64,000 nt of DNA, taken from a bacterium BMS3Abin14 (lineage in GTDB: Bacteria; BMS3Abin14). The translations under genes were made by a program, and so were the position numbers. Location: NCBI GenBank assembly GCA_002897695.1, contig BDTG01000046.1, positions 61,431 to 125,430 on the forward strand. The letters run 5' to 3'. Of this stretch, positions 6,044 to 22,091 are shown piece after piece (position 1 is the first letter of the stretch; each line of letters begins with the position of its first letter). Below the pieces are notes generated by a model, which saw only the letters and a list, made by a program, of their open reading frames with translations, was not told the origin of the DNA and did no database searches.

Positions 6044-6346
6044 CTAGCCCTTCATCAGGTTGATTTCATCAACGTTGACGGTCTCACGATTGCGGAACAG
6101 GGCCACGAGAATCGCGAGACCCACGGCCGCCTCCGCGGCTGCCACCGTCATCACAAAAAACACAAATACCTGTCCCGCCATATTGTGTATATAGTGGGAA
6201 AAGGCGATCAGGTTGATATTCACGGCATTAAGCATCAGCTCAATGGACAGAAGAATTATGATGATGTTCCTCCGGAGGAGTACCCCCAGAAGACCGATAA
6301 CAAACAGAATGGCCCCGAGGACCAGATAGTGCGTAAGGGTAATCAT
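6044..6346 (-). CDS. nuoK: NADH-quinone oxidoreductase subunit K
   Basis: Small membrane subunit (100 residues, three transmembrane segments), normal for NuoK/ND4L. It keeps the conserved glutamates of the quinone-proximal proton path: one in the [10 protein letters not shown] stretch and one in the [11 protein letters not shown] stretch. The start codon overlaps the stop of nuoJ by 4 bases (ATGA), a sign of translational coupling. It acts with NuoA, H and J at the junction of the membrane arm. Confidence 0.95.
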
Positions 6347-6855
6347 TCCGCGCTCTCCCTTCGAGCCAGGACCACAGCCCCGAAAATCGCCACCAACAGA
6401 ACCAGGGATGCCAGTTCAAACGGAAACAGAAACGTTGTGTAAAGGCTCGCGCCCACAGCTTCGGTATTTCCCCCGAAGACGTTGCCGACAAGTTTGGCGA
6501 CCGGACGGGAAAATGAACCCTGAACCGCAAGAATGACAAGTTCAAGCGCAAGCGCGATGCCGGCGACCATGGCAAAGAATCGCTGGCGGTGTATTATCCT
6601 CAGCTCCCTGGTGCCGGAAAGATTCAGCAGGGTAACGACAAAAAGGTAAAGGACCATAATAGCCCCGGTGTAGACCAGAATCTGAACGGCAGCCAGAAAT
6701 TCGGCGTCCAGCAGGACAAAAAGACCCGCGATATGGAAGAAACACGGGATGAGGAATATCACCGAATGGACGGGGTTGGAACGGGAAACCGACAGCACGG
6801 CCGTCACTACCGTAACCACCGCAAAATAGTAAAACAACAATGAATACAGATTCAT
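6343..6855 (-). CDS. nuoJ: NADH-quinone oxidoreductase subunit J
   Basis: Membrane subunit of complex I (170 residues, five predicted transmembrane segments), the ND6 equivalent. The segment [20 protein letters not shown] matches the conserved third helix of the family, where a pi-bulge is known in solved structures. It starts 10 bases after nuoI and overlaps nuoK by 4 bases. Length and content are ordinary. Confidence 0.95.
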
Positions 6856-6865
6856 CAGCCGCTCC

Positions 6866-7312
6866 CTACAGGTCCTTGTACTGGGGGTCGTCCCCCTTGG
6901 CCAGCATAGTCTCTTTGGTCACCTTCAGATTGCCGGGGTCGGTGACAGTCAACTCATAATCGTTCCCCATCCAGACGGCATCAACGGGACAGACCTCCTG
7001 GCAGAATCCGCAATAGATGCAGAGCCCCAGGTCGATCTGGTAGAAATCGACGTTTTTCTCGTGCTCCTCGCCCTCGGAGGTTACGATGGTAATGGCATCG
7101 GATGGGCAGATCGCCGCACACAGGGCACAGCCCACGCACCTCTCCTTGCCGTCCGGATGCCGTTTGAGAATCTGAGCGCCTCTATATCGGGGGGGCGGTT
7201 CCCAACGCACCTCCGGATATCTGAGGGTAACCGGCTTGGAGAAAAAATATCTGATGGTAAGAGTCAGCCCCTGAATCAGGTCAGTTTGGAAAATGTTGGT
7301 CAGCAGGCCCAC
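6866..7312 (-). CDS. nuoI: NADH-quinone oxidoreductase subunit I (two [4Fe-4S])
   Basis: Peripheral-arm iron-sulfur subunit (148 residues) that passes electrons to the terminal NuoB cluster. Two classic ferredoxin motifs are visible, CVGCALCAAICP and CIYCGFCQEVCP, separated by the usual spacer, giving clusters N6a and N6b. The N-terminal amphipathic stretch (GLTLTIRYFFSKPVTLRYPE) is typical. It lies between nuoH and nuoJ with about 10-base gaps on both sides. Confidence 0.95.
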   Translation of the reverse strand: MGLLTNIFQTDLIQGLTLTIRYFFSKPVTLRYPEVRWEPPPRYRGAQILKRHPDGKERCVGCALCAAICPSDAITIVTSEGEEHEKNVDFYQIDLGLCIYCGFCQEVCPVDAVWMGNDYELTVTDPGNLKVTKETMLAKGDDPQYKDL

Positions 7313-7323
7313 TGCGATCTCTC

Positions 7324-8343
7324 CTATAAAATTCCGGATATTCTGATGATACCGGACAAAAAGACATTAAAAATTGCGAGAGGAAGAAGAACTTTCCAGC
7401 CAAGCCCCATGAGCTGGTCATACCGGAGTCTGGGAAACGTCCACCGCACCCAGACCATGAAGAAGAGAAAAAATCCAACCTTCAACAAAAACCAGACGAC
7501 AGGCATGACATAGGCCACAAACGCGGCGGGCAGCGCCGAATCGATGATGGGCCCGACAATAGGCAGCGGGAGCCACCCCCCGAAGAACAGAACGACCAGA
7601 ACGCAGGATATGGAGATCATGGAAACGTACTCGGCCATGAAGAAGAGGGCGAACTTCATGGATGAGTATTCCACGTGATAACCGGCCACAAGCTCCTGCT
7701 CGGCCTCGGGAAGGTCAAAGGGAAGACGGTTGGTCTCGGCGAAGGCCGCGACCAGAAAAAGGAGAAATCCCAGGAACTGCGGGATGACAAACCATAGCCC
7801 ACGCTGCGCCTCCACGATCTGCACCATTGACAGGGAACGCGAGTACATGAGCACCCCTATGATGGAGAGTCCGAGGGTCAGTTCATAGCTGATCATCTGC
7901 GCAGCGGACCGCAACCCGCCCATGAGAGCGTACTTGTTGTTGGATGACCACCCGGCCAGAACCAGCCCGTAAACGCCCAGAGATGAGATGGAAAGTATGT
8001 ACACGATGCCGATATTCAGATCGGATATCTGGAGATGGGGCCCGATGGGGATGACGGCGAACGTCAGCAGAGCCGGAATAAATGCCATGAGCGGCGCCAG
8101 GACAAAGAGAACCTTGTCGGCATTGGAAGGCATTATATCTTCCTTGAAAAAGAGCTTGAGCGCATCTGCGATGGGCTGAAGAAGCCCAAAAGGACCCACA
8201 TAAAGTGGTCCGTGCCGATTCTGGATATGACCCGACACCTTCCTTTCAACCCACACCATAACCGGCACACCCGTCAGGGCCACGATGAGGATACCCACTA
8301 TTTTCAGCAGGATGACGAACAAGAAAAGCCAGATATTCTCCAT
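7324..8343 (-). CDS. nuoH: NADH-quinone oxidoreductase subunit H
   Basis: Membrane subunit (339 residues, about eight helices) that forms most of the quinone chamber with NuoB and NuoD. Diagnostic stretches include WVERKVSGHIQNRHGP near the N-terminus, AFAETNRLPFDLPEAEQELV in the middle, and RWTFPRLRYDQLM near the C-terminus. The charged loop between the last two is conserved and links quinone reduction to the membrane arm. It follows the TPR gene by 23 bases in the operon and precedes nuoI by 11. Confidence 0.96.
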   Translation of the reverse strand: MENIWLFLFVILLKIVGILIVALTGVPVMVWVERKVSGHIQNRHGPLYVGPFGLLQPIADALKLFFKEDIMPSNADKVLFVLAPLMAFIPALLTFAVIPIGPHLQISDLNIGIVYILSISSLGVYGLVLAGWSSNNKYALMGGLRSAAQMISYELTLGLSIIGVLMYSRSLSMVQIVEAQRGLWFVIPQFLGFLLFLVAAFAETNRLPFDLPEAEQELVAGYHVEYSSMKFALFFMAEYVSMISISCVLVVLFFGGWLPLPIVGPIIDSALPAAFVAYVMPVVWFLLKVGFFLFFMVWVRWTFPRLRYDQLMGLGWKVLLPLAIFNVFLSGIIRISGIL

Positions 8344-8366: not shown

Positions 8367-9365
8367 TTAATATTCCATGGCGCCGGATCGCTTGATTTCT
8401 CCAACCTTCTCGAGGAGGAAAAAGGCGTCCGTGTTCTCAGGATTGAGCTTAATAGCGTTGTTGAGCACCTCTTCGGCCTTGTCCAGCAGTCCAAGATGAA
8501 CGTAGCTGTTGCCCAGGTGATACAGGGCGCTGGAATCCATCGGATCGAGTTCTTTAACCCGGTTGAAGCTGGCCGCGGCGTCCTCATGTGACCCCTTCCT
8601 GGCCTGAGCAACTCCCAGATGGTAGTAGGCGGCTGTAAATTGAGGTGACAGAGCCAGCGTTTGTTCGTATGCCTTGACGGCATCCTGCATGTTGCCCAGG
8701 TGGAAGTAGACCTGCCCCAGCCAGTAGTAGGCCATGACGTATCCGGGGGAGATCTCCACCACCTTCCTGAGGGCATCCTCAGCATCCTTCAGCATGCCTT
8801 TCTGGAAATAAACGGTCCCCAATACGTACATGGCCCTTGCGAAGGTGGGTGATATTTCGAGGGATCGCCGCAACTCCTCTACCGCGTCGTCGAGCTTGGC
8901 GTTCTTCTGGTGGAGCAGGGCAAGACGGTAATGAATCTGGGCGGTGTCGGGTATCATCTTTTCCACCCGGTTGAAATGAAACTCCGAATCAGGAAGAAGA
9001 CCCATGGAGTAGCATGTCATTCCAAGGCGATAATGAACCGCGGGAGATGTGGGATTTGCGGCCTCAGCCTTCTTGAAACACTCCAGGGCCGCCGACAGCA
9101 TCCCCTTGTCGTAGTAGGCAACCCCCATGTAGTAATGGGTCATCTGAAAATCAGGCACCAGTTCGAGGGTTTCTTCCCAGCGCTTAAGCGCGTCGTCGAA
9201 GTGCCCCTGGTGGTAGAGGGAACTTCCATCGCGGTAGAGCTTTTCGGCCTTCTCCTTGTTGGAAAGAGCCTCATGGTCATCGACCGTCGCCTCAAGCTTG
9301 TTGCCGCACTCCTTGCAGTAGCGGCTGTCCTCCGGGATCAACAGATTGCATGCCGGGCAGATCAT
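8367..9365 (-). CDS. TPR-repeat protein with N-terminal zinc ribbon, inside the nuo operon
   Basis: 332-residue soluble protein. The first 25 residues form a zinc-ribbon-like motif, MICPACNLLIP followed by YCKECGNK (CxxC...CxxC). From about residue 40 to the end it is built of roughly eight tetratricopeptide repeats, seen as recurring patterns such as HYYMGVAYYDKG, VHYRLGMTCYSMG, AMYVLGTVYFQKG and AYYWLGQVYFHLG at 34-residue spacing. TPR arrays bind protein partners. It lies between the second nuoG-like gene and nuoH with gaps of 5 and 23 bases, so it is co-expressed with complex I. A role in assembling the doubled peripheral arm is inference; function is otherwise unknown. Confidence 0.85.
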   Translation of the reverse strand: MICPACNLLIPEDSRYCKECGNKLEATVDDHEALSNKEKAEKLYRDGSSLYHQGHFDDALKRWEETLELVPDFQMTHYYMGVAYYDKGMLSAALECFKKAEAANPTSPAVHYRLGMTCYSMGLLPDSEFHFNRVEKMIPDTAQIHYRLALLHQKNAKLDDAVEELRRSLEISPTFARAMYVLGTVYFQKGMLKDAEDALRKVVEISPGYVMAYYWLGQVYFHLGNMQDAVKAYEQTLALSPQFTAAYYHLGVAQARKGSHEDAAASFNRVKELDPMDSSALYHLGNSYVHLGLLDKAEEVLNNAIKLNPENTDAFFLLEKVGEIKRSGAMEY

Positions 9366-9370
9366 TTTTG

Positions 9371-12151
9371 TTACCCTCCCGAAATTTCCGGCCCTGTTTT
9401 ATCCGAGGCCTGAAGTTTCTTTTGCTGGATCTCCTGAACAGTCTTTTTTATTTTGGTGAGTTGTCCTCCGACATCTCTCTCCTCAACAACAATTCTCTCC
9501 GTCTTCTCCGCCGCCACACAGGTAATCCCCTTCTCCTTGACCGCGCTGTACCCGAAGAGGGCGTTGACATGCACATCCCGGTAGTGGGTGGGGACGAAGA
9601 TGGTACCGGGCAGGCTCCGGTCGGTGACCCTGACCTCCACTTCCGTTATTCCCTTCATGCCCGTCAGCCTGATCCAGTCGCCGGTTTTGATCTCAAGGGC
9701 CTCCGCATCCACGGGGTTGACCTCCGCCACGGCGGCAGGGGCGACCTCATTGAGTCCCTTGGCCATTGTCGTAGTCGTTCCCGAGTGGTAAAGCAGGGTC
9801 CCGGGGATCAGTATGTAGGGGTAATTGGCTGTGGTTTTTTTGGGCTCCTGATAGTGGACGGGCCTGACGCGGCCAAGTCCGCTGGGGAACCTGTCCATGT
9901 GGAGAACCTCGGTTCCAGGATGGTCGGGCCGGGGGCACGGCCAGTGGAGACCGTCCTTCTCCAGCCGGTCGGGCCTGATGCCGGCGTAAAACGGGATAAT
10001 GCGGGCTATCTCCTCAGTTATATCCATGCCGTTTGCGAAATCCATGGGATAGCCCAAAAGGGTAGATAGCTCGGTGATTATCTTCCAGTCATCCCGCGTG
10101 TGGGCCGGGCTTTCAATGGCCTTTCGGACACGCTGGACGCGGCGGTCTGTGTTGGTGAAGGTTCCGTCCTTTTCCGGACCGCATGATGTCGGGAGAAGGA
10201 CGTCGGCGAGAAGCGCCGTGTCGGTGAGAAACATGTCCTGAACAATGAGCAGATCCAGGTTTTTGAGCGCTTTTTTCACCGCCTCCCGGTCCGGGAAAGA
10301 GGAAAGAGGGTTTTCCCCCATAACGTACAGCCCTTTCAGCCGGCCCTTCTTCGCCTCAAGGATCATCCCCTCGGCAGAGAGCCCATCGGTGGCGGGCAGC
10401 TTCGTTTTCCATTGTCCCTCGAACCACTCCCTGTTCCCCTCGGAGGCCACCGGCTGATACCCGGGGAAAAACTCGCACAGGGCGCCCATGTCCATGGAGC
10501 CCTGCACGTTGTTATACTCCGACATGGGAATAACACCGGCTCCAAGCCGGCCCACATTACCGGTGACAAGGGCGAGGTTTACAGCGGCCGCAACCGTGTC
10601 CTCCCCTGTATAAGGGCTTGCCGATCCCAGTGTGATGAGGATAGTGGCATGTTCGGCTGCAGCCATGAGGCGAGCGGCATCGCGGACTTGCTCGGCCGGG
10701 ACACCCGTTACTTCCTTCATCTTCTCAGGAGCATAATCCTGCAGGGAGGCCCGCAGTTCCTCCAAACCGGTCACCCGTTTTTCACAGAATCCCTTATCTT
10801 CCAGCCCCTCATCGAATATGGTGAAGGCCATGGAATTCAGCAGGGCAACGCTCGTCCCCGGAGAATGCCGCATCCAGTTATCGGCGAACCGTGTAATCTT
10901 TACTTTCCGGCTGTTGGCAACGAGGAGCCGTGCCTTTCCGGACCTGACCTGTTTGAGGACCTTCAGCCCCGCAATATGATCATCCTCCGTGATGTTCGAA
11001 TCCAGGGTGAAAATGAGGTCCGAGTGTGTAAGATCATTCAGGGTGTTGGTGGGAGCCTCAACGCCGAAGGCCTTTCTGAGGGCTTCCATGCCTGGAAAAT
11101 GGGCGAATCTGGCGATGGAGTCGACATTGTTGGTGCCCACCGCCGCCCGCATGAATTTTTGAAAAAGGTAGTTCTCCTCATTTGTGCACCTGGCCGAGGC
11201 GATTCCTCCCAGAGCATCCGCTCCATGTTCATCGCGAATCCCCGTCAGGCCCTGCGCGATATATTCGTAGGCCTCATCCCAGGTGACGGGGACCAGTTCG
11301 CCGTCCTTGCGTATTCTGGGCTCGGTTATCCTGTCGGGATGGTGGACGTACTCGTAGCCGAACCGCCCCTTGCAGCAGAGGAATCCGCTGTTAATGGAAC
11401 CCTCGTCATCTACACCGAGAACATGGTATATCCGGTCACCCTTGACCTCGAGATTGAGGGTGCATCCCACACCACAGAAAGGGCATGTGGTACGAACCGG
11501 GGTCAATTCCCAGGAGGGGGCCGTATACTTGTAGATCCTGCTGTAAAGGGAGCCCACAGGACAGGCCTGGATGCATTGGCCGCAGAATTCACAGTCCAGC
11601 GTTCTGGCGAAGGAAGGCTCAACGACCGTCGGAAAACCGCGGTTGGTGAAGTCCAGTTCCCCTTCGCCCTGCACTTCGTCACAGATTCTCACGCAGCGGC
11701 CGCAGAGGATGCAACGGTTCTGGTTCATCTCTATGAGGGGAGACAGGTAGTCGATCCTCTTTTTCACCTGGATGTATCCGAACCGTCCGTAATCCTTGCC
11801 ATGCTCAAAGGTCATGTCCTGGAGACCGCAGCGCCCTGACTGAGGGCAAATGGGGCACTCCAGCGGATGGTAAGTCAGGAGAAGTTCCAGGACCGTTTCA
11901 CGGGCCCTCTTGACCCGGGCCGTGTCAGTGTGGATATCCATTCCGTCTGCAACGGGCATAACGCAGGAGGCGAAAAGCCGGTCAGAGCCCTCCACCTCCA
12001 CAACGCACATGCGGCATGAACCGAAGGGCATCAAATGCTTGTAGTCACAGAAAGTGGGTATCTCCACATCCAGCATGCGTGCCGCTTCCAGGATGGTGAT
12101 TCCCCTCGGTACCTCTACCTTTTTTCCATCGATAGTCAGGGTTACATTCAT
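9371..12151 (-). CDS. Second NuoG-like / formate dehydrogenase alpha-like subunit without the Mo-ligand residue
   Basis: 926-residue iron-sulfur/molybdopterin-fold protein. In order: N-terminal [2Fe-2S] domain (FGSCRMCVVEVEG), HPLECPICPQSGRC motif, two [4Fe-4S] clusters (CILCGRCVRICDE and CEFCGQCIQACPVGS), a further cluster (TCPFCGVGCTLN with a later LCCKG), then a full molybdopterin oxidoreductase domain and a C-terminal dinucleotide-binding domain. The region SARCTNEENYLFQKFMRA and GTNNVDSIARFAHFPG aligns by eye with formate dehydrogenase alpha chains, but the Cys/Sec that binds molybdenum (AR-x-C/U-H) is Ala here while the next His is kept. Catalysis on formate is therefore unlikely. It is probably the NuoG-type electron conduit of the second input module. 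Confidence 0.9.
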   Translation of the reverse strand: MNVTLTIDGKKVEVPRGITILEAARMLDVEIPTFCDYKHLMPFGSCRMCVVEVEGSDRLFASCVMPVADGMDIHTDTARVKRARETVLELLLTYHPLECPICPQSGRCGLQDMTFEHGKDYGRFGYIQVKKRIDYLSPLIEMNQNRCILCGRCVRICDEVQGEGELDFTNRGFPTVVEPSFARTLDCEFCGQCIQACPVGSLYSRIYKYTAPSWELTPVRTTCPFCGVGCTLNLEVKGDRIYHVLGVDDEGSINSGFLCCKGRFGYEYVHHPDRITEPRIRKDGELVPVTWDEAYEYIAQGLTGIRDEHGADALGGIASARCTNEENYLFQKFMRAAVGTNNVDSIARFAHFPGMEALRKAFGVEAPTNTLNDLTHSDLIFTLDSNITEDDHIAGLKVLKQVRSGKARLLVANSRKVKITRFADNWMRHSPGTSVALLNSMAFTIFDEGLEDKGFCEKRVTGLEELRASLQDYAPEKMKEVTGVPAEQVRDAARLMAAAEHATILITLGSASPYTGEDTVAAAVNLALVTGNVGRLGAGVIPMSEYNNVQGSMDMGALCEFFPGYQPVASEGNREWFEGQWKTKLPATDGLSAEGMILEAKKGRLKGLYVMGENPLSSFPDREAVKKALKNLDLLIVQDMFLTDTALLADVLLPTSCGPEKDGTFTNTDRRVQRVRKAIESPAHTRDDWKIITELSTLLGYPMDFANGMDITEEIARIIPFYAGIRPDRLEKDGLHWPCPRPDHPGTEVLHMDRFPSGLGRVRPVHYQEPKKTTANYPYILIPGTLLYHSGTTTTMAKGLNEVAPAAVAEVNPVDAEALEIKTGDWIRLTGMKGITEVEVRVTDRSLPGTIFVPTHYRDVHVNALFGYSAVKEKGITCVAAEKTERIVVEERDVGGQLTKIKKTVQEIQQKKLQASDKTGPEISGG

Positions 12152-12157
12152 GTCCCG

Positions 12158-13972
12158 CTATTCCTTCACCACAGCGTTGAACCTGCACACCTCGAAGCAT
12201 GTATTGCATTTGGTGCACATGTCTTGGTCGATGACATGGACCTCTTTCCTGTTCCCGGAGATCGCCCCAACCGGACACTTTTTCGCGCAGACCGTGCAAC
12301 CAGTGCAGGCGTCCTCCAGGATCCGATATGTGATAAGGGCGGTGCATACCTTGGCAGGGCATATCTTGTCCCGGATATGCGCCTCGTATTCGTTTCTGAA
12401 GTACCGGAGGGTGGAGAGTACCGGGTTGGGGGCGGTCTGACCGAGGCCGCACAGGGAGGTGCGCTTGATCTCCTGCCCCAGGTCCTCCAGGTTCTTCAGG
12501 TCCCCCATGGTACCCTCGCCCGCGGTGATACGTTCGAGGACCCCCAGCATGGTCTTTGTACCCAGCCGGCAGGGAACACACTTGCCGCACGACTCGGCAG
12601 TCGTGAATTCAAGGAAAAACCGCGCCACGTCCACCATGCAGTCGGTTTCGTTCATGACCACAACTCCGCCGGAGCCCATCATGGCGCCCGCCTGGATGAG
12701 GGAATCGTAATCGATGGCGGTATCGCCCAGGTCGGCGGGCAGGCATCCGCCCGAGGGCCCTCCCAGTTGGGCCGCTTTGAACTGGCTGCCTCCATCGACC
12801 CCGCCGCCGATGTCGTAGATTATCTCCTTAAGCTGGGTTCCCGCCGGGACCTCGATGAGTCCCGTATTCTTGATCTTCCCCGTGAGCGCGAAGACTTTTG
12901 TGCCCTTGGTGCCCTTTGTACCCACACTGGCACAGCTCTCGGCGCCGTTGAGGATAATGGGCGGCACGTTTGCGAAGGTCTCCACGTTGTTTATGTTGGA
13001 GGGTTTGGCCCACAGGCCCTTATGGGCCGGAAACGGAGGCCTGGACCTGGGCATTCCACGTCTCCCTTCGATGGAAGCCATCAGGGCCGTCTCCTCGCCG
13101 CAGACAAAGGCGCCGGCGCCCTCCTTGACCCTGAGCTTGAAAGAAAAATCGGTTCCCAAAATCCGGTCGCCCAGGTAACCCTTCTCCTCAGCCTGCATGA
13201 TGGCCAGTTTGAGGCGCTTGATGGCAAGTGGATACTCTGCGCGGCAGTAAATATAGCCGTAGCTGGCACCGATGGCATAGGCGGCGATGATCATCCCCTC
13301 AATTACCGCATGGGGATCGCCCTCAAGAACGCTCCGGTCCATGAACGCTCCAGGATCGCCCTCATCGGCGTTACAGATCAGGTACTTGGGCTCTCCGGCG
13401 GCGTTGGCGCAAAAATCCCATTTCAGCCCGGTGGGGAACCCTCCTCCGCCCCGACCCCTGAGGCCTGACCGCTTAACGACCTCCCTGATGATGGTGGGGG
13501 ACATGGTGTTGATGGCCTTCTCCGTCGCCTTGTATCCGTCGGTCTCGAGGTAGTCCTCCACCTTCTCCGGATCTATAAACCCACAGCGCCTGAGGACGAC
13601 ACGTTTCTGCTTCTTGAAGACGGGCATCTCCTCATAGGTCGGTATCCCCTTGTATGGCCTGTGCCCCTCCGAAACGATCTGGCCGATGGCGTATTCGGTG
13701 ACCGGCTTTCCCCCTACAAGGTGGCTTTCGAGGATACCGGGCACCATCTCGGGGGTCACCTTGGCATAGGTGACCCGTGCCTTTCCCGGCAGCACCACAT
13801 CCAAAAGGACCTCCTGGTAGCACATGCCGATGCACCCCGTCTTCAGGATAGGAACCTCGATGGAGAGGGACTTGAGGTAGTCCTCTACCTCGCTGAGGAT
13901 GCCCTTCGCACCTGTAGCAAGCCCGCAGGTTCCCATTCCAATGACGATCATTTTTTCGCTGTCATATCCCAT
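12158..13972 (-). CDS. Second NuoF-like NADH-binding subunit with C-terminal ferredoxin domain
   Basis: 604 residues, much longer than standard NuoF. The N-terminal 90 residues form a thioredoxin-like [2Fe-2S]-type domain with three visible Cys (MGTCGLATGA and TGCIGMC). The NuoF core follows: glycine-rich NADH loop (GLRGRGGGGFPTGLKWDF), the FMN/NADH stretch NADEGDPGAFMDRS, and the N3 cluster motif SCGKCVPCR with the later SLCGLGQ. The C-terminus adds two [4Fe-4S] sites, CTGCTVCAKKCPVG and CTKCNTCFEVCRFN. This layout is that of HydB/HndC-type diaphorase subunits of NAD(P)-linked hydrogenases and formate dehydrogenases. Only 6 bases separate it from the next gene. Strong family call; electron partner not known. 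Confidence 0.92.
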   Translation of the reverse strand: MGYDSEKMIVIGMGTCGLATGAKGILSEVEDYLKSLSIEVPILKTGCIGMCYQEVLLDVVLPGKARVTYAKVTPEMVPGILESHLVGGKPVTEYAIGQIVSEGHRPYKGIPTYEEMPVFKKQKRVVLRRCGFIDPEKVEDYLETDGYKATEKAINTMSPTIIREVVKRSGLRGRGGGGFPTGLKWDFCANAAGEPKYLICNADEGDPGAFMDRSVLEGDPHAVIEGMIIAAYAIGASYGYIYCRAEYPLAIKRLKLAIMQAEEKGYLGDRILGTDFSFKLRVKEGAGAFVCGEETALMASIEGRRGMPRSRPPFPAHKGLWAKPSNINNVETFANVPPIILNGAESCASVGTKGTKGTKVFALTGKIKNTGLIEVPAGTQLKEIIYDIGGGVDGGSQFKAAQLGGPSGGCLPADLGDTAIDYDSLIQAGAMMGSGGVVVMNETDCMVDVARFFLEFTTAESCGKCVPCRLGTKTMLGVLERITAGEGTMGDLKNLEDLGQEIKRTSLCGLGQTAPNPVLSTLRYFRNEYEAHIRDKICPAKVCTALITYRILEDACTGCTVCAKKCPVGAISGNRKEVHVIDQDMCTKCNTCFEVCRFNAVVKE

Positions 13973-14001
13973 CTGCCGCTATATCCTCCTGAAGAGTGGA
14001 A

Positions 14002-14568
14002 TCATTCCCCACCCTTCGTACCGTCCATCTCCCGGAGGTTCTTGATGATCTTGTCCACCTTGGGGGGTGTCAAGTGCCCGAGCGCGTCGTCATCGATCAT
14101 GATGACCGGCGCCAGCCCGCAACATCCGAGACAGGCTACCTTCTCGAATGAGGCAAATCTGTCCTCGGTGGTCTCTCCATGCCCGACGTCGAGAATGGAC
14201 TCGAGTCGGTCGATTATACCCTTGGCGCCACGGACGTGGCAGGCTGTCCCGGAGCAGGCCCGGATGATGTGGCGCCCTCTGGGCGTTAGGTGAAACTGCG
14301 TATAGAAGGTCAGAACGCCGTACACCTGGCTTCGGTAGAGCCCAAGTTCATCGGCTACAAGGTTGGCAGCCTCCTCGGGAACGTAGCCATAGGCCGTTTG
14401 AACCCCCTGAAGAACTGGGATCAGCATCCCCCTGGCATCATTAAGCGACCCGAGGATTTCCCGCACGTGAGCAAGATCGAGCTCCTCCTCGACTTCCTCG
14501 GTCCCCGCATCCACCCGGACACCCTCCGGGGTTACCTCGGTTACATCGGCGCTCACCGCCACCTCCAC
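14002..14568 (-). CDS. Second NuoE-like [2Fe-2S] subunit
   Basis: 188-residue thioredoxin-fold protein of the NuoE/HydC family that carries one [2Fe-2S] cluster (N1a type) and docks on the NuoF-like subunit. The ligand pattern is complete: RACSGTACHV and, 36 residues on, CLGCCGLAP. About 45 residues precede the first family helix, a poorly conserved acidic extension (VTPEGVRVDAGTEEVEEE). The start overlaps the end of the upstream cyclic-nucleotide-domain gene by 16 bases, so the two are likely coupled. It begins the second E-F-G set. Confidence 0.93.
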   Translation of the reverse strand: MEVAVSADVTEVTPEGVRVDAGTEEVEEELDLAHVREILGSLNDARGMLIPVLQGVQTAYGYVPEEAANLVADELGLYRSQVYGVLTFYTQFHLTPRGRHIIRACSGTACHVRGAKGIIDRLESILDVGHGETTEDRFASFEKVACLGCCGLAPVIMIDDDALGHLTPPKVDKIIKNLREMDGTKGGE

Positions 14569-15020
14569 ATGTAATTAACCATGTCGATGTACCGTTCGTT
14601 CATTCCCCTCAGGGAGTCCACCAGTTCATCTATAATGAGCTTCATGATCTTCACGGCGTCCGCAGGGTGTTCCTCCACAAACCGGTCGAATGACGCCCGG
14701 TCCAGCAGGTACAGCACGGTCTCTCCCTTGGCGCCGGCATCGGCCGAGTGCTCGCCTCCCGAAAGGAAGGTCATAATGCCGACGAAACGCCCCGCGGGAA
14801 CGATACCCAGATTCTGGGCTTCGCCCTCTTTGGCCCTTTTCGTGATTCTCACCGCCCCCTGGCCTACCAGGTAAAGATCGCCACCCGGGGTTCCCTCGTT
14901 GAAGATCGGCCCCTTATCCTGATAGGCCCTCCTTTGAAGGACCCTTGCCAGATAATTCAAGGCATCGGCCGAAATAGTCTGGAATGACTTCATCTGTTTG
15001 AGCTGGCTAATTTCAATCAT
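14553..15020 (-). CDS. Cyclic-nucleotide-binding domain protein between the two NuoEFG sets
   Basis: 155-residue protein made almost only of a cAMP/cGMP-binding (Crp/Fnr sensor) fold: beta-roll region GPIFNEGTPGGDLYLVGQG followed by GAVRITKR and RFVGIMTFLSGGEHSADAGA, then a C-terminal helix. There is no helix-turn-helix DNA-binding domain, so it is not a Crp-like transcription factor as it stands. The phosphate-binding cassette (FVGIMTFLSGGEHSADAG) is only a partial match to cNMP-binding consensus, so ligand binding is uncertain. It sits 13 bases after nuoG and overlaps the second nuoE, so it is made with complex I. A regulatory role on the enzyme is inference. Confidence 0.85.
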   Translation of the reverse strand: MIEISQLKQMKSFQTISADALNYLARVLQRRAYQDKGPIFNEGTPGGDLYLVGQGAVRITKRAKEGEAQNLGIVPAGRFVGIMTFLSGGEHSADAGAKGETVLYLLDRASFDRFVEEHPADAVKIMKLIIDELVDSLRGMNERYIDMVNYMWRWR

Positions 15021-15033
15021 CTTTCATTCCTCC

Positions 15034-17709
15034 TCAAAACTTCTCAACCCGGACCCGGACCACAGCGGTCTCCAGCCCGGCGCCGTTTTCCCCCATAAGA
15101 CGGCTGACCGGTACATCGGAGAAGTGGCGCGGCAAAAAGAGCACCCCGGGCAAAAGATCGTTTGAAAACTTTACGCCGACCGCAACCTCACCACCGGGGG
15201 AAACCACCTTGACCCGGCTTCCGTCCTCAATATCCAGCCCGGCGCCGGTGGCCTCGTTCATTGTCAGAACCGCCCTGCCGACAAGCTGATTGAGGGATTC
15301 CGAATACCCGGTAAAACTCCCGGAGTGCATCAGCAGATTACCGACCAGCAGTGTCAGGGGATAATCCGGATCCCTTGCAAAACCTCCCCATCCTTCCACT
15401 GCTGCGAAGGAGCGCTTCACATCCGGGACCGAATCCGGCAGAAGGTGTCTGGTCCCAAGGTAACCCTCGCTGTAGACCTCCTGGGCATCCTGCCTGGTGA
15501 AGGGCCACTGAATGCCGTGGTCGGCCAGAATGCGATAGTTGATCCCGGAGTAGTACGGCACGACGCTGGAGATCTCATCGAGCACTTCCGCGGAGTTGAC
15601 GTACTTGAGCCCTTCAACGCCCATGGATACACCGACTTCCGAGAATATCCTCCAGTCGGGCATGGTTTTCCCGGCCCCGTCCTGGGCTTTTTTGCTTAGC
15701 TGTACCCTTCTGTCAATGCTCGTGAGGGTGCCGTCCTTTTCGGGAAGGCCGCAGGCAGGCAGAACGACATGGGCACTGGATGCCGTCTCCGTCAGGAACA
15801 GCTCCTGAACCACGAGGAATTTTACCCTGGCCAGGGCCTCCTCGATCATCTGCCTATCCGGAAATGTTACAACCGGGTTTACTCCAACGAGGTACAGCGC
15901 CGAAAGCTTACCCTTCCCGGCGGCGGCGAACATCTCGTTGGCATTCATCCCCGGTTTTTTTGGAAGAACGGCATCCCAGGTTTTCTCAAGGGTTTTTACG
16001 CCCCCGGAAGATCCGACCTGAACCCACCCGGGAAGATGGCCGGGTGATACGCCCATGTCTACAACACCCTGAAAGTTGGTGTTGGAAAGGACGGGATAAA
16101 TACCGCAGCCTTCCTTTCCAAGGCGGCCGGTAAGCATCAGGAGATCGATAAGAGCGTTTATCAGATCCCCGCCGTTGGGACCCAGGGCGGCTTCCTCACC
16201 AAATATAACGGACGACTTCCCGGCGGAGATGAATTCCCTCGCAGTCTGGGTGATGTCGTTAACGGAAACGCCCGCATCCGATGCCATCTTCTCAAGGTCA
16301 AGGCCGCCGACCGATCCCCTGAGGGCCTTCATGCCCTTATAATCCGACAGGGCCTCCTCATCGACCAGTCCCTCATCCAGCATGACCCGCATCATCCCCT
16401 TGATGAACGTCACCTCATTGCCCACGTCAAGGAGCACCGTCCGGCCTGCAAGCCGCGACAGGGCTGTACGCCTGGGTATGAGTTCGGTTACCGAAGCGCC
16501 TTTTCTAATGGCCGCCTTGATCTTGAGCCCGGCAATGGGGCTCTCCACGGTTATGTCACATCCCACGAGGAGCAGGGATTCAACATAATTAAGCTCGTCA
16601 AGAGAATTCGGCGCGGCCAGAACTCCAAGTCGTTTCTCAAGGATGGGCAGAACGAGGCGGTTCCAGTTTCCGGTCGGCGTGTCCACATTGTTGCTTTCAA
16701 AACCGACCCTGAAAATCTTCTGGAAAAGGTAGAGCTCTTCATTGGTCAGGCGGTCCGATACGACCCCGCCGATGGAGTTGCCGCCGCTCGTTTTCTTCAC
16801 TTCCCCGAAACCCCTGGAAATTTCTTCCAGGGCCTCCTCCCAGGAGGCCTCGACCAGTTCATCACCCTTCCGGATCAGGGGTGATCTGAGCCGTTCGGGG
16901 TTATTGATGGCATCGTACCCGAAATAGCCCCTGGAGCACAGACTGCCGTAATTGACCCCCCTGTTTTCCGCGTTGGTCACTTTGAGCACCTTGTTATTTC
17001 GATGATTGTAGACCAGCGTGCAGCCCACGCTGCAGTACGGACAGATGGCCTCCGTCTTGTCCATCTCCCACGTACGGAACCTCTCCTTCATGGCCCTGGA
17101 AGTGATAGCCCCCACCGGACATACCCAGATACAGTGTCCACAGTATTCGCAGTCGAGGGACTTTTCCATGAACGGTCCCACGATCGTCTGGGCGCCGCGG
17201 TATGACATTCCGAGGGCCGTCACCCCCTGGATCTCATCGCATATCCTGACGCACCTTTTGCACTGTATGCACCTGTTAAGATTCCGGTCGATGAGCGGGC
17301 TGATGATATGGTCCCTCAGGATCCTCTTCTTCTCTCCGAATCTGGTCTCGCCGCTTCCGAACTTGAAGGAAATATCCTGAAGGGCGCAATCCCCGGAAGC
17401 ATCACATACGGTACACTCCAGGGGATGGTTGATAAGGAAAAATTCCAGCATCATCCTCCTGGCTTTCTGGACCCGCGGCGTGTTGGTCCTGATCTCCATG
17501 CCATCCAGGACCGCCAGGGTGCAGGCCGTCTGCAGTTTGCCCATACCTTCCACTTCCACCAGGCACATACGACAGGCGCCGAGCTCGCTCAGCATGGGGT
17601 GATGACAGAATGTGGGAATATGGATACCAAGCTTCCTGGCCGCGGCGAGGACGTGAAGATGCCCGTCCACCTTGATCTGCTTTCCGTCTATTACCAGGCG
17701 GACCATCAT
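15034..17709 (-). CDS. nuoG: NADH-quinone oxidoreductase subunit G
   Basis: 891-residue iron-sulfur subunit of the peripheral arm. N-terminal [2Fe-2S] site (TFCHHPMLSELGACRMCLVE), the N5-type motif HPLECTVCDASGDC, two [4Fe-4S] motifs (CIQCKRCVRICDE, CEYCGHCIWVCPVG), an N7-type motif (CPYCSVGC with a later LCSRG), then a degenerate molybdopterin-fold region. The active-site region of the fold (ESNNVDTPTGNWNRLV) has no Cys or Sec, as expected for NuoG. The start ATGATG overlaps the nuoF stop by 4 bases. It completes a conventional ABCDEFG series before the extra genes. Confidence 0.93.
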   Translation of the reverse strand: MMVRLVIDGKQIKVDGHLHVLAAARKLGIHIPTFCHHPMLSELGACRMCLVEVEGMGKLQTACTLAVLDGMEIRTNTPRVQKARRMMLEFFLINHPLECTVCDASGDCALQDISFKFGSGETRFGEKKRILRDHIISPLIDRNLNRCIQCKRCVRICDEIQGVTALGMSYRGAQTIVGPFMEKSLDCEYCGHCIWVCPVGAITSRAMKERFRTWEMDKTEAICPYCSVGCTLVYNHRNNKVLKVTNAENRGVNYGSLCSRGYFGYDAINNPERLRSPLIRKGDELVEASWEEALEEISRGFGEVKKTSGGNSIGGVVSDRLTNEELYLFQKIFRVGFESNNVDTPTGNWNRLVLPILEKRLGVLAAPNSLDELNYVESLLLVGCDITVESPIAGLKIKAAIRKGASVTELIPRRTALSRLAGRTVLLDVGNEVTFIKGMMRVMLDEGLVDEEALSDYKGMKALRGSVGGLDLEKMASDAGVSVNDITQTAREFISAGKSSVIFGEEAALGPNGGDLINALIDLLMLTGRLGKEGCGIYPVLSNTNFQGVVDMGVSPGHLPGWVQVGSSGGVKTLEKTWDAVLPKKPGMNANEMFAAAGKGKLSALYLVGVNPVVTFPDRQMIEEALARVKFLVVQELFLTETASSAHVVLPACGLPEKDGTLTSIDRRVQLSKKAQDGAGKTMPDWRIFSEVGVSMGVEGLKYVNSAEVLDEISSVVPYYSGINYRILADHGIQWPFTRQDAQEVYSEGYLGTRHLLPDSVPDVKRSFAAVEGWGGFARDPDYPLTLLVGNLLMHSGSFTGYSESLNQLVGRAVLTMNEATGAGLDIEDGSRVKVVSPGGEVAVGVKFSNDLLPGVLFLPRHFSDVPVSRLMGENGAGLETAVVRVRVEKF

Positions 17710-18983
17710 GCTGATTCCTCCAACGTTCCGCCGTCCGGCTCTTCGCCCTTCAAATAACCCAGGTACTCATCCCTGAACTTTTCCATGGTGCTCGTCACAC
17801 AGCTGACCGATGCCTCTCCCAGCCCACAGAAGGACGTGGTCCGGATGCTCTCACAAATATCCGACAGCAGATCCAGATCGGCCATGGCGCCGCGGCCCTC
17901 CAGGATCCTGTCGAATATCCTTCTGACCCAGAAAAGACCCTCCCTGCATGGAGTGCACTTACCGCAGGATTCGTGCTCGAAAAACTTGATAAGCACGTGG
18001 GTGACCTTGACCATATCGGCGGTATCGTCCAGGACCATGACGGCCCCTGATCCGAGCATGCTGCCGGCCGCAGCCAAGGCATTGAAATCCAGCTTCACAT
18101 CAAGCTGGGATTCGTCAAGACAGGCGGAAGATGCGCCTCCCGGGAAGGCCGCCTTGAAGCTCCTGTTGTCCCGCATCCCACCGGCGTGCTCAAAGACAAG
18201 CTCACGCAGGGTAACCCCCATGGGCAGTTCATAGACCCCGGGATTGACCACGTGGCCGCTGACGGAGAAAAGCTTTGTTCCGGGGCATTCCGGCGTACCG
18301 ATCCCTGCGTACCAATCACCGCCCCTCAGGAGTATCTGCGGAATGGAAGCGAGTGTTTCAACGTTGTTGACGACCGTAGGCAGGTCACTGTATCCGACGT
18401 TGACCGGGAAGGGAGGGCGAATTCTGGATTGCCCCCTTTTTCCCTCCAGGGACTCGATGAGGGCGGTCTCCTCACCGCACACATAAGCTCCCGCTCCCCG
18501 ATGTACGGTTATCGTGAAATTGAAACCCGAGTTCAGGATGTTCTCACCGAGAAACGATCTTTCCTCAGCCTCTTTAATGGCCCGTTCCAGAACCCTGGCC
18601 CCAAAGGGGTATTCACCGCGAATGTAGATGAAGCCATACTCCGCCCCCACGGCATATGCGGCCAATGCCATCCCCTCCAGGATGGCATGGGGGTCGTTCT
18701 CGATCAGCACCCTGTCCTTGAAAGTTCCGGGCTCACCCTCGTCCGCATTGCATATGATGAACTTCGGGCTGCGCCGGTCCCGTGACGCAAAGTCCCACTT
18801 CATGCCCGCGGGAAACCCTGCCCCGCCCCGACCCCTCAGCCGGGAAAGTTTAACCTCCTCAAGGACATCCTCGGGGCCCATTTCGTTCAAGGCCCTGGGG
18901 AGAGCAACGTATCCCTCGTTGACCAGATAGGAATCGATATGCGCCGGATTGGGCCGGTCAATATTTCGGGTCAGGATCTTCAA
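17706..18983 (-). CDS. nuoF: NADH-quinone oxidoreductase subunit F
   Basis: NADH/FMN-binding subunit with cluster N3. A TTG start at 18983 is preferred over the longer frame up to 19064: it lies 4 bases after the nuoE stop, has AGAAGG upstream, and gives 425 residues, the usual NuoF length (LKILTRNIDRPNPAH...). Motifs: LRGRGGAGFPAGMKWDF, NADEGEPGTFKDRVLIENDP, SCGKCTPCREG and SFCGLGE. It lacks the N- and C-terminal iron-sulfur extensions seen in the second copy at 12158-13972. It accepts electrons from NADH and passes them to NuoG, with NuoE attached. Confidence 0.94.
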   Translation of the reverse strand: MKILTRNIDRPNPAHIDSYLVNEGYVALPRALNEMGPEDVLEEVKLSRLRGRGGAGFPAGMKWDFASRDRRSPKFIICNADEGEPGTFKDRVLIENDPHAILEGMALAAYAVGAEYGFIYIRGEYPFGARVLERAIKEAEERSFLGENILNSGFNFTITVHRGAGAYVCGEETALIESLEGKRGQSRIRPPFPVNVGYSDLPTVVNNVETLASIPQILLRGGDWYAGIGTPECPGTKLFSVSGHVVNPGVYELPMGVTLRELVFEHAGGMRDNRSFKAAFPGGASSACLDESQLDVKLDFNALAAAGSMLGSGAVMVLDDTADMVKVTHVLIKFFEHESCGKCTPCREGLFWVRRIFDRILEGRGAMADLDLLSDICESIRTTSFCGLGEASVSCVTSTMEKFRDEYLGYLKGEEPDGGTLEESA

Positions 18984-18987
18984 AACG

Positions 18988-19479
18988 CTACGCCTTCTGC
19001 CTGTATGACTCAAGGATGCTACCAACACCGTCGGCTGAAACCTGCCGGTAGAGATCCGCATCAACCATCAGGGCCGGAGCATGGTCGCACGCCCCTATAC
19101 ACTCCACTTCCACCAGTGAAAATATGCCGTCGGCAGTGGTCTGCCCCACTTCTATGCCCAGTTCCCTTTCAACCGCCCCGAGAATCTCATCCGACCCGTT
19201 GACCGAACAGCTCATGCTCCGACAGATCTGGACAAGATGCCTGCCCATGGGTTTCGTAAAGAACATGGTGTAGTAGGTGGCCACCTCAAAGGCCCTTACG
19301 TGGGGAATCTCGAGCATGTTCGCGATAAAGACGAGATCCTCCTCGTCCAGAGATTGTTTCTTTCCCTGAACGAAGTGCAGAAGGGGCATGATGGCGGACG
19401 CTTTTATGGGATATCGGCCGACAATGCCTTCCATGGCCCTGACGTCATCGGCTTTGAGGTATCCGGGGGGCGCCGTCAT
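18988..19479 (-). CDS. nuoE: NADH-quinone oxidoreductase subunit E
   Basis: 163-residue thioredoxin-fold [2Fe-2S] subunit. Ligands are seen as CRSMSC and VECIGACDHAPALMVD. Length is normal and shorter than the second copy (188). The start overlaps the nuoD stop by 4 bases. Together with nuoF and nuoG it forms the first NADH-input set of the operon. Confidence 0.94.
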   Translation of the reverse strand: MTAPPGYLKADDVRAMEGIVGRYPIKASAIMPLLHFVQGKKQSLDEEDLVFIANMLEIPHVRAFEVATYYTMFFTKPMGRHLVQICRSMSCSVNGSDEILGAVERELGIEVGQTTADGIFSLVEVECIGACDHAPALMVDADLYRQVSADGVGSILESYRQKA

Positions 19480-20648
19480 CGGTCAATTTCCCCCAAGACA
19501 ATATCAAGGCTCCCGATGATGGCCACCACATCGGCAAGCATATGCCCCTTGGCCATATCCATGAGGGACTGGAGATTGACGAATGAGGGAGGACGGATTC
19601 TGAGGCGGTACGGCTTTGGCGTCCCGTCGCTGACGATATAAAAACCGATCTCGCCCTTGGGCGATTCAATGCTGGAATATACTTCCCCCTCGGGCGGCGC
19701 CAATCCGTCCACCACCAGTTTGAAGTGGTGGATCATGGCCTCCATCGAATCTTTCAGCCGGTCCTTGTCGGGGAAGACGTACTTGGCGGTGCGCTCGATG
19801 AAAGGCCCTTCGGGAAGGCCCTTGACCAGCTGTCTGACCATTCGGGAACTCTGCCGCATTTCGACGAGACGGACAAGATACCTCGCATAGATATCGCCGG
19901 CGGTCCTGACGGGAATGTCAAATTCAATCTCGTCGTAGGCCTCGTAAGGTTCGTCCCTTCGGATATCCCAATCAACACCTGAAGCACGCATAGCGGGTCC
20001 GGAAAGGCCCAGGCTGATGGCATCGGCCCGGCTGAGAACCCCGATATTCCTTGTCCTGTGCAACCATATGCGATTCTTTGTCAGAAGCCTCTCGTACTCA
20101 TTGATGCGGACATCAAACTTGTCGAGGAAAGCGATGATCTTCGCATCAACACCCGCCGGGAGGTCACGGACTACACCGCCGGGACGGAAGTAGGTCATCA
20201 TCATGCGTGTACCGGCGGTCTCCTCGATAATATCCAGGATGAACTCCCTCTCCCGGAAGCCGTAAAGGAGGACCGTCAGGGCGCCGATATCGGCCGCGTG
20301 GGTGCCCAGCCACACCAGGTGGCTCATGATCCGGGACAGCTCCGCAAATATGGTCCTGATATACTGCGCGCGGCGTGGAACGTCCATCTCCAGGAGTTTT
20401 TCAACCGCCAGGATGTATGACAGATTGTTGGTGCCGGAGGAAAGATAGTCCAGTCGGTCGGTGAGAGGAATCACCTGAAGGTACTTCTTGTCTTCGGAAA
20501 GTTTTTCTATACCCCTGTGCAGATAACCGATATCGGGAACCGCGTTGACCACCGTCTCGCCGTCCAGCTCCAGGATAATCCGGAGGACGCCGTGGGTGGA
20601 GGGATGCTGAGGCCCCATGTTGATGGTCATTACTTCCTGTCTGGCCAT
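19476..20648 (-). CDS. nuoD: NADH-quinone oxidoreductase subunit D (49 kDa)
   Basis: 390-residue quinone-site subunit, related to the large subunit of NiFe hydrogenases but without the nickel-binding cysteines. Typical stretches are NMGPQHPSTHGVLR near the N-terminus, PDIGYLHRGIEKL, and the C-terminal VVAIIGSLDIVLGEIDR ending in the conserved Arg. It is separate from nuoC here, unlike the nuoCD fusions of enterobacteria, and follows nuoC by 11 bases. Confidence 0.96.
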   Translation of the reverse strand: MARQEVMTINMGPQHPSTHGVLRIILELDGETVVNAVPDIGYLHRGIEKLSEDKKYLQVIPLTDRLDYLSSGTNNLSYILAVEKLLEMDVPRRAQYIRTIFAELSRIMSHLVWLGTHAADIGALTVLLYGFREREFILDIIEETAGTRMMMTYFRPGGVVRDLPAGVDAKIIAFLDKFDVRINEYERLLTKNRIWLHRTRNIGVLSRADAISLGLSGPAMRASGVDWDIRRDEPYEAYDEIEFDIPVRTAGDIYARYLVRLVEMRQSSRMVRQLVKGLPEGPFIERTAKYVFPDKDRLKDSMEAMIHHFKLVVDGLAPPEGEVYSSIESPKGEIGFYIVSDGTPKPYRLRIRPPSFVNLQSLMDMAKGHMLADVVAIIGSLDIVLGEIDR

Positions 20649-20659
20649 CTATTCCTCCC

Positions 20660-21169
20660 TCACCACTCTTCCCGTCCTCCGACGGGAAATTCCTTACGCA
20701 GGGGATATCCTTCGAAATCGCTGGGCATGAGTATCCTTCTCAGGTCCGGATGATCCGCAAATGGAATGCCGAAAAGATCAAAAATCTCCCTCTCCAGCCA
20801 GTCGGCTCCCCGCCACAATCCGCAGACGCTGTCTACTTCCTGCCCTTCCGAAATCCTCGTCTTGAGCCGGAAGCGCATTTTGCCGGCGATGGAAAATAGC
20901 TGATAGATGACATCGAATGGGGCCTCTTTCCTGACAGGCCAGTGGACGGCCGTAACGTCCGAGAGGAAATCGAAGGCCAGTTCCGGGTCATCCTTGAGAA
21001 AGCGAAGCGCGTCCCTGCATTTTTCGGGGGCGATGACCACTCCGACCTCACCTCGGAAGAATTCAATTTCCCGAACAGCCCCTGAAAAATTTTTGCGAAG
21101 TGCCGTAACCGCGGGATGCTTCTCCGGATCCTCCCCCGCGAAGTTCTGGCGATTCCAGTTAACCGTCAA
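20660..21169 (-). CDS. nuoC: NADH-quinone oxidoreductase subunit C (30 kDa)
   Basis: 169-residue peripheral-arm subunit. The family signature [20 protein letters not shown] followed by [20 protein letters not shown] is clear at the C-terminus. It overlaps nuoB by 4 bases and precedes nuoD by 11. No cofactor is expected. A DNA shadow frame on the other strand is not a gene. Confidence 0.95.
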
Positions 21170-21720
21170 ATCGTCTCCTTTTTATGCGGCCCCGTAAATC
21201 CCGGCGCAACCTTGCGGGGTACCGCAGAAAAGTTTGACTGGCTGTCAATCTTCATCTGAAGGGTCATGAGCCCGTGGATGAGGGCCTCGGGACGCGGAGG
21301 GCATCCGGGAACATAGACATCCACCGGAATAACATGGTTCACCCCGGGGACCACACTGTAGGTCTGAAAGATCCCGCCGCACGTCGCGCAGCTTCCCATG
21401 GCCAGAACCCATTTGGGGTCTGCCATCTGATCGTAAAGCTTCTTGAGCACCGGCGCCATCTTGTTTGTCACGGTCCCGGCCACGATCATAAGGTCGGCCT
21501 GCCTGGGGGAGGACCTGAAGACCTCCATGCCGAAACGGGCTATATCATATCGCGCGGCCGCGGTGGCCATCATCTCTATGGCACAACAGGCCAGCCCGAA
21601 GCCGAGGGGCCACAGCGATGATCGCTGTGCCCAGTTAATGGCGGAACTTAACGTTGTGAGAACGATATTGCCCTCATCCGGGTGTGGACCTTTATAAATG
21701 TGGGTGGGGTTTTTGCTCAT
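21166..21720 (-). CDS. nuoB: NADH-quinone oxidoreductase subunit B (cluster N2)
   Basis: Subunit carrying the terminal [4Fe-4S] cluster N2 next to the quinone site. The unusual tandem cysteine pair is present (LACCAIEMM), with the other ligands in GSCATCGG and PGCPPRPE. I place the start at ATG 21720 (MSKNPTHIY), which overlaps the nuoA stop by 4 bases (ATGA) and gives 184 residues; a longer frame to 21747 would overlap nuoA by 31 bases. Confidence 0.95.
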
Positions 21721-22091
21721 GACCAGTCCAGAGCTCCCTTCCTCCATACGTAGACATAGCCGAAGAGGAGGACAGCGATAAAGAGGATCATCTCGACGAA
21801 ACCGAAGATAACCGGGTTGAAACGGTCAAAGAGGATCGCCCACGGATACAGGAACACTATTTCAACGTCAAACAGGATAAACAGCATGCCTATGAGGTAG
21901 AATCGAACGTCAAAGCGCCCCCTGGCATCCTTGAAGGGGACCATGCCGCATTCATAGGTGGAGTTTTTCTCCGCGGTGGGATTCTTTTTCCCCATGAAAA
22001 CGGACATGACCACCATTCCACCGCCCACGCCGCCTACCGCGAGGAGGAAAATAAATACAGGCAGATAATTGAGGACGAGCTCCCCTTTCAC
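21717..22091 (-). CDS. nuoA: NADH-quinone oxidoreductase subunit A
   Basis: 124-residue membrane subunit with three transmembrane segments, first gene of the operon. Family hallmarks are [20 protein letters not shown], with the conserved Cys loop near the quinone entrance, and [15 protein letters not shown]. The start is preceded by a purine-rich GGGGGGGAGG stretch. A candidate promoter lies about 90 bases upstream at 22183-22211. Confidence 0.95.

Follow-up and report, generated by a model that had tools for sequence, protein, structure and literature searches.

Complex I is taught as an enzyme with one arm and one electron entrance. A 64,000-nucleotide stretch of DNA from the bacterium BMS3Abin14 (contig BDTG01000046.1, positions 61,431 to 125,430), hereafter called the window, raises the question of whether one arm can be served by two entrances, since its complex I (nuo) operon contains two complete sets of genes for the input subunits NuoE, NuoF and NuoG. 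An earlier interpretation made from the letters alone (the sequence-only reading) had noticed both sets and offered two explanations: alternative input modules docking on one membrane arm, or a soluble enzyme wired to the same quinone arm. Our analysis favored the former. We consider it likely that the second set, E2F2G2, is a Bfu-type input module working on the one complex I arm that the canonical set, E1F1G1, also serves.

Two electron-input sets in one nuo operon

The nuo genes form a single minus-strand run from 22091 to 870, in the order A, B, C, D, E1, F1, G1, cNMP, E2, F2, G2, TPR, H, I, J, K, L, M, N, where cNMP is a gene for a cyclic nucleotide monophosphate (cNMP)-binding domain and TPR is a tetratricopeptide repeat (TPR) gene. 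As the sequence-only reading had stated, both sets are complete and lie on one strand between nuoABCD (22091-19476) and nuoHIJKLMN (8343-870). All six E/F/G frames are open and full length, Pfam and NCBIfam profiles label each of them NuoE/F/G-like, and every junction from nuoA to nuoH is an overlap or a gap of no more than 29 bases. That reading listed the E/F/G sets and flanks correctly but overlooked the cNMP gene, which sits between the two sets, and the TPR gene between G2 and nuoH. Only one match to PF00146 (NuoH) was found in the host genome.

E1, F1 and G1 all score above curated NuoE/F/G cut-offs. E1 (18988-19479, minus strand, as are all genes described below) matched PF01257 at 162 bits, exceeded the TIGR01958 cut-off and carries the N1a ligands CRSMSC and CIGAC. 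F1 (17706 to about 18989; its listed TTG start at 19064 falls within E1) exceeded the cut-offs of TIGR01959 and NF010120. This NADH/FMN subunit ends after the N3 domain, without the B2 ligands, the ferredoxin tail or any of clusters B2-B5, and in a 147-row tree it groups with NuoF of E. coli and other canonical NuoF proteins. E1F1 is a canonical NADH module. G1 (15034-17709; TIGR01973, 481 bits, above cut-off) retains CxxCxxCxxxCP (CEYCGHCIWVCP), the ligands for one further [4Fe-4S] cluster, A3, which have been lost in 11 of the 11 canonical-type NuoG proteins examined, that of E. coli included.

The second set carries a Bfu signature. E2 (BfuC-like, 14002-14568) matched PF01257 at 165 bits, exceeded the NF005722 cut-off and contains the BfuC [2Fe-2S] ligands (C1) as CSGTAC and CLGCC. 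F2 (BfuB-like, 12158-13972) is a 604-residue protein consisting of an N-terminal [2Fe-2S] site (B5; C16/C47/C51), an FMN/NADH domain with B2 ligands, and a C-terminal eight-cysteine 2[4Fe-4S] ferredoxin tail (B3 and B4). Its best solved relatives are enzymes of the bifurcating type, namely 9bov, NiFe-HydABCSL (7t2r), Stn (8oh5), NfnB (9n5u) and HydB (7q4v), of which 9bov, 8oh5 and 9n5u are bifurcating transhydrogenases. The B2 ligands of A. mobile (C438, C/T476, the diagnostic H525, C531 and C536) served as the reference. Alignment to 7t2r revealed that every B2 position is present in F2 (C445, T483, H532, C538 and C543), while F1 has D, L, Y, P and L at these five positions. The B2 histidine occurs in virtually all BfuB proteins and is absent from non-bifurcating HydB homologues (Schut et al., PMC9304861). 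By its ligand set, E2F2 is predicted to be a Bfu (electron-bifurcating, HydBC-type) core.

G2 (9371-12151) is a BfuA/NuoG-like protein that fits formate dehydrogenase (FDH) alpha subunits better than NuoG, with a TIGR01591 score of 644.7 bits, below the cut-off of 666. In comparison with Rhodobacter FdsA (RcFdsA), C386 is replaced by A350 and R587 by S544, and H387 is kept as H351. These three RcFdsA residues are the catalytic ones. Across the host's family the molybdenum (Mo)-ligand position is Ala, Gly or Ser, and the Ser at the Arg site is invariant. Since both the Mo-ligand cysteine or selenocysteine (Sec) and the substrate arginine have been lost, G2 is not a normal FDH, and a working FDH was ruled out although the genome has a tRNA-Sec. 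Because the ligands for clusters A1-A5 are all kept, G2 can conduct electrons, and we predict that it is a wire rather than an FDH. The tree, in which several forks are open, did not support an origin of G2 among present-day FDHs; G2 branches near the base of the group of FDHs and NuoGs with A3, alongside other complex I NuoGs. The Pfam scan placed no GltD-like FAD/NADPH domain on G2; in relatives such a domain sits on F2. The resemblance of the second set to the diaphorase part of hydrogenases and formate dehydrogenases, which the sequence-only reading had proposed, was borne out and sharpened to a Bfu-type set with a dead-site FDH homologue as its NuoG.

Conservation and exchange of the input sets

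The sample of the host's candidate phylum comprised 12 genomes, all from one family; among them are SZUA-204 and the single-contig metagenome-assembled genomes bin47, bin582 and bin676. The dual-set order recurred, spanning several genera. It is intact in the host (G000) and in G001, G002, G008, G009 and G011 (in the last across two contigs), is partly visible in G006, and is broken in G003 by a rearrangement within F2. In G003 the halves of F2 lie far apart on the chromosome (L036:9752-11206; G003:C1 ~1916-1921 kb, L104), which reflects either an inversion that broke within F2 or a fault of assembly there. Between the window and G001, the ratio of nonsynonymous to synonymous substitution rates (dN/dS) was 0.07-0.15 for all genes of both sets and for the cNMP and TPR genes, indicating that both heads are maintained. 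Together, the conserved order and low dN/dS argue that the operon pattern is not due to chance. Exactly one NuoH was found in each of G000, G001, G002, G008 and G009, and thus one arm is available for two heads. The second set was not displaced to another locus in the family, whose members hold it at the same place; in bacteria outside the family, such sets are also found by themselves, as FDH operons.

Two further members, G004 and G005, contain only nuoD-E2-F2-G2-nuoH on continuous contigs, without E1F1G1 or the cNMP and TPR genes. G004 shares its genus with G009 and G011, which both have the dual set, and the NuoD and NuoH proteins of G004 and G005 reach 88-89% identity with their counterparts in dual-set relatives. 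The presence of E2F2G2 alone on such a similar arm means that this set can be the sole head, and these alignments indicate that the middle segment has been exchanged on nearly the same arm. The TPR gene (8367-9365 in the window, encoding an N-terminal zinc-ribbon-like CxxC...CxxC) was seen solely in the family's dual-set operons. Dual-set G2 proteins likewise share a conserved C-terminal extension, xGPEVSGG (ending VSGG or ISGG; GPEISGG in the window), that single-set G2 proteins lack, and the G2 tail may possibly contact the TPR protein.

The F2 proteins of G001 and all other complete dual-set relatives are about 1026 amino acids long, and in them a GltD/NfnB-like domain (an iron-sulfur (Fe-S) domain, FAD and a pyridine-nucleotide site) replaces the ferredoxin tail, so that B3/B4 are absent. 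Within the window's F2, residues 531-604 match single-set G005 (94 and 82%) and the body matches G001 (80-91%); the F2-G2 junction is of the single-set form, like that of G005. Synonymous divergence (dS) between the window and G001 was ~0.2-0.8 over most of the operon and rose to ~0.8-2.2 from mid-E2 through F2 to the first 75 codons of G2. An initial view of a simple tail swap in F2 was consequently refined by dS to a recombination tract, covering mid-E2, the whole of F2 and the first ~75 codons of G2 (~11900-14350, minus strand, ends approximate). The raised dS, together with the G005-like tail and junction, indicates that recombination swapped an NADPH-type head for a ferredoxin-type head, and the same comparison suggests that this swap in the window's lineage is recent. 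Elsewhere, a GltD-tailed NuoF of 1019 amino acids lies directly upstream of nuoABCD and a NuoG in genome G032 (L075, cut by the contig end), which is possibly another NADPH-headed complex I. The window also encodes a stand-alone GltD/SfrB-like protein of 647 amino acids (37927-39870), in which zinc-ribbon-like and hydrophobic segments precede the Fe-S/FAD/NADPH part; its identity to the GltD domain in the relatives' F2 is only 31%.

Beyond the family, most E2-F2(ferredoxin tail)-G2 cassettes form FDH operons with Sec or Cys, in Nitrospirota, Actinomycetota and some Thermodesulfobacteriota, and the same cNMP gene often follows them. The window's cNMP gene (14553-15020; PF00027, 60 bits; no DNA-binding domain) therefore belongs to the second cassette. 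In Nitrospirota, a small cNMP protein without a DNA-binding domain is regularly found 3' of bifurcating-type Sec-FDH operons (L110, L113, L134, L144 and others). Independent Bfu heads with a dead-site G adjoin nuoH in L148 and lie near nuoIHJKL in L229. In G237 and G097, which come from a phylum of four genomes, an analogous operon runs from A-D through H-K and some six antiporter-like genes to E1, F1, [G-G], cNMP, E2, F2, cNMP. The G-G protein, a single polypeptide linking the two heads, has 1788 amino acids and two complete NuoG halves, neither with the Mo-ligand Cys. It occurs in both genomes at 90% identity, making an assembly error unlikely, and no fused NuoG-NuoG was seen in the other genomes of the 386-genome sample. 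F1 of this pair is sister to the F1 of the host's family (Shimodaira-Hasegawa-like approximate likelihood ratio test, SH-aLRT, 96). Their roughly six NuoL/M/N-type genes (L251:11191-20000 with L212; L252 with L213) compare with the usual three. In two other operons (L211:1-10913 of G108; L222:791-15409 of G246), an SfrB/GltD-like protein of ~649 amino acids and an FDH replace NuoEFG between nuoD and nuoH. This FDH is seemingly intact, its Mo-ligand position being occupied precisely by an in-frame TGA (in G108, CARL*HSS with the Arg retained), and both genomes have a strong tRNA-Sec; by gene content, these operons look like a formate/NADPH-fed complex I.

The remaining genes of the window's operon are those of the arm. 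Sequence, order and conserved synteny assign nuoA (21717-22091), nuoB (21166-21747) and nuoC (20660-21169), and nuoD (19476-20648) matched TIGR01962 at 587 bits, over the cut-off. Downstream of TPR lie the membrane-arm gene nuoH (7324-8343), nuoI (6866-7312), nuoJ (6343-6855), nuoK (6044-6346), nuoL (4101-6032), nuoM (2358-4001) and nuoN (870-2351).

One arm and its possible heads

The option of a module on complex I is favored because two relatives carry only E2F2G2 between nuoD and nuoH. It builds on the observed gene content, order and conservation, the ligand sets, the dead FDH site, the single nuoH and the natural single-head versions. For docking geometry, substrates, quinone type and direction, we infer the following scheme. 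E1F1G1 would take electrons from NADH alone, and E2F2 would confurcate two electrons from NADH with two from reduced ferredoxin; the GltD-type F2 of most relatives would instead combine NADH with NADPH through its GltD-like domain. The five Fe-S clusters of G2 would then pass electrons to the NuoI/NuoB chain and on to menaquinone. Schut et al. argue that the added ferredoxin electrons supply sufficient energy for pumping four protons with menaquinone (PMC9304861). Proton pumping could be fed by either pool, and the reverse run would yield NADH or reduced ferredoxin. In G000 an RnfC-type gene is present and COX1 was not detected, which fits a ferredoxin-using anaerobe; dsrA and CdhC were looked for in this genome and not found.

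Both heads might be docked together, with G1 beside G2 and bridged by the A3 cluster that G1 retains; alternation of the heads on the arm would be the main variant. We prefer simultaneous docking because A3 is kept in G1, NuoGs are fused in G237 and G097, and the TPR gene and G2 extension are confined to dual-set operons. None of these is proof, and a two-headed complex I, in which canonical and Bfu (NADH plus ferredoxin or NADPH) modules sit simultaneously on one arm with NuoG1 and NuoG2 wired together, is put forward tentatively, at somewhat less than even odds.

Several points weigh against our interpretation. A shared operon alone is no proof of a shared complex, and all family genomes whose record titles were inspected are metagenome-assembled. 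The F2 of most relatives lacks the ferredoxin tail, and ferredoxin use would accordingly be specific to the host genome and the single-set ones. The fused NuoG halves come from another phylum and in the tree show no special relationship to G1 or G2; thus the dual arrangement may have arisen twice, and the fusion may be convergent with the dual set of the host's family. An AlphaFold model of G2 (predicted local distance difference test score, pLDDT, 47.5) was too poor and was discarded.

The strongest competitor to a module on complex I, though an unlikely one, is that E2F2G2 is a separate soluble enzyme, either like a Bfu transhydrogenase or a diaphorase and akin to bifurcating FDHs, that is merely co-transcribed. 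The nearest F2 and G2 relatives elsewhere do come from operons for FDHs or hydrogenases of the soluble type, in which the E-F-G(-cNMP) order is the same, G005 has an additional E2-F2(GltD) pair at a site apart from nuo (L039), and Desulfotignum, with several NuoEFG sets, lacks the other nuo genes (PMC4046663). However, a soluble enzyme does not readily explain why E2F2G2 is the only EFG set between nuoD and nuoH in G004 and G005, nor the NuoG-NuoG fusion in G237 and G097, and with the formate site of G2 lost there is no obvious third substrate except quinone via complex I. That E2F2G2 is the working head and E1F1G1 is free or residual would agree with single-set relatives retaining E2F2G2 rather than E1F1G1, but we regard it as quite improbable, given that E1F1G1 is conserved in every genome with the dual set, shows the low dN/dS described above and scores above canonical NuoF and NuoG cut-offs. 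Finally, a second set that is a recent duplicate or decaying remnant of the first has nothing in its favor beyond shared family membership and can be dismissed: F1 and F2 are 46% and G1 and G2 about 37% identical, the NuoF and NuoG trees each place the two sets in separate, 100%-supported clades, intact frames and purifying selection mark both, and the two are, on this divergence, evidently ancient paralogues.

If correct, a conserved two-entrance operon with one- and both-head versions and a fused NuoG would reveal the input head to be a part that can be exchanged and stacked, and one pump could draw on two fuel pools. These operons would offer naturally occurring constructs with which to test how the energy of ferredoxin or NADPH drives, or arises from, proton pumping, and they bear on how ferredoxin-, NADPH- and NADH-fed forms of complex I evolved from one another.

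Relation to known systems

A literature search, outside which most subscription journals and preprints fell, returned no report of a single-arm nuo operon that pairs a canonical head with a Bfu head, nor of a complex I whose NuoF bears an NADPH domain or whose NuoGs are fused. The closest precedent is Nuo-Bfu, in which BfuABC substitutes for NuoEFG and which was proposed for Geobacter, Deferribacteres, Planctomycetes and Nitrospirae (Schut et al. 2022, PMC9304861). As here, Bfu-type E/F/G genes lie in the middle of the nuo operon, and oxidation of NADH and ferredoxin by menaquinone is proposed. Unlike there, the window, whose nuo operon is complete, adds the Bfu set to the canonical one; the relatives G004 and G005 do have the Bfu set in NuoEFG's stead. 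Neither a NuoF-GltD (NADPH) fusion nor fused NuoGs came up in a search of the text of PMC9304861.

NUO-2 of Nitrospina gracilis and the Kuenenia complex I also have extra clusters in NuoF and NuoG and a proposed link to ferredoxin (PMC3578206). Nitrospina NUO-2 resembles our system in having one [2Fe-2S] and two [4Fe-4S] clusters added to NuoF and one [4Fe-4S] added to NuoG, but it is a separate second complex I that has an arm to itself and whose genes are scattered (PMC3578206). Moreover, the FMN site is reportedly absent from Nitrospina NuoF2 (PMC3578206), whereas the window's F2 keeps a GRGGxGFP-type FMN motif. Bifurcating-type NAD/ferredoxin FDHs (Fdh-Bfu; Nitrospirota, Actinomycetota and others) share the E2-F2(ferredoxin tail)-G2 order, the downstream cNMP gene, the G2 family and the Fe-S ligands, but in their G subunits Sec/Cys and the remaining catalytic residues are intact, in contrast to the Ala/Gly/Ser at the Mo-ligand site and the Ser at the Arg site of G2 here. 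The Stn/Nfn-Bfu transhydrogenase (Sporomusa, Thermococcus) resembles the window's relatives in joining a Bfu core to a GltD/NfnB-like NADPH domain; this domain is on BfuA in Nfn-Bfu and at the F2 C-terminus in the relatives, and the window's F2 has none. Canonical complex I (E. coli, Thermus) matches the window in E1, F1 and the A-D plus H-N arm, but has a single head and a NuoG without A3, which G1 and G2 both keep. A complex I with a Bfu head alone has already been proposed (PMC9304861); for both heads in one single-arm operon, the literature searched gave no earlier report.

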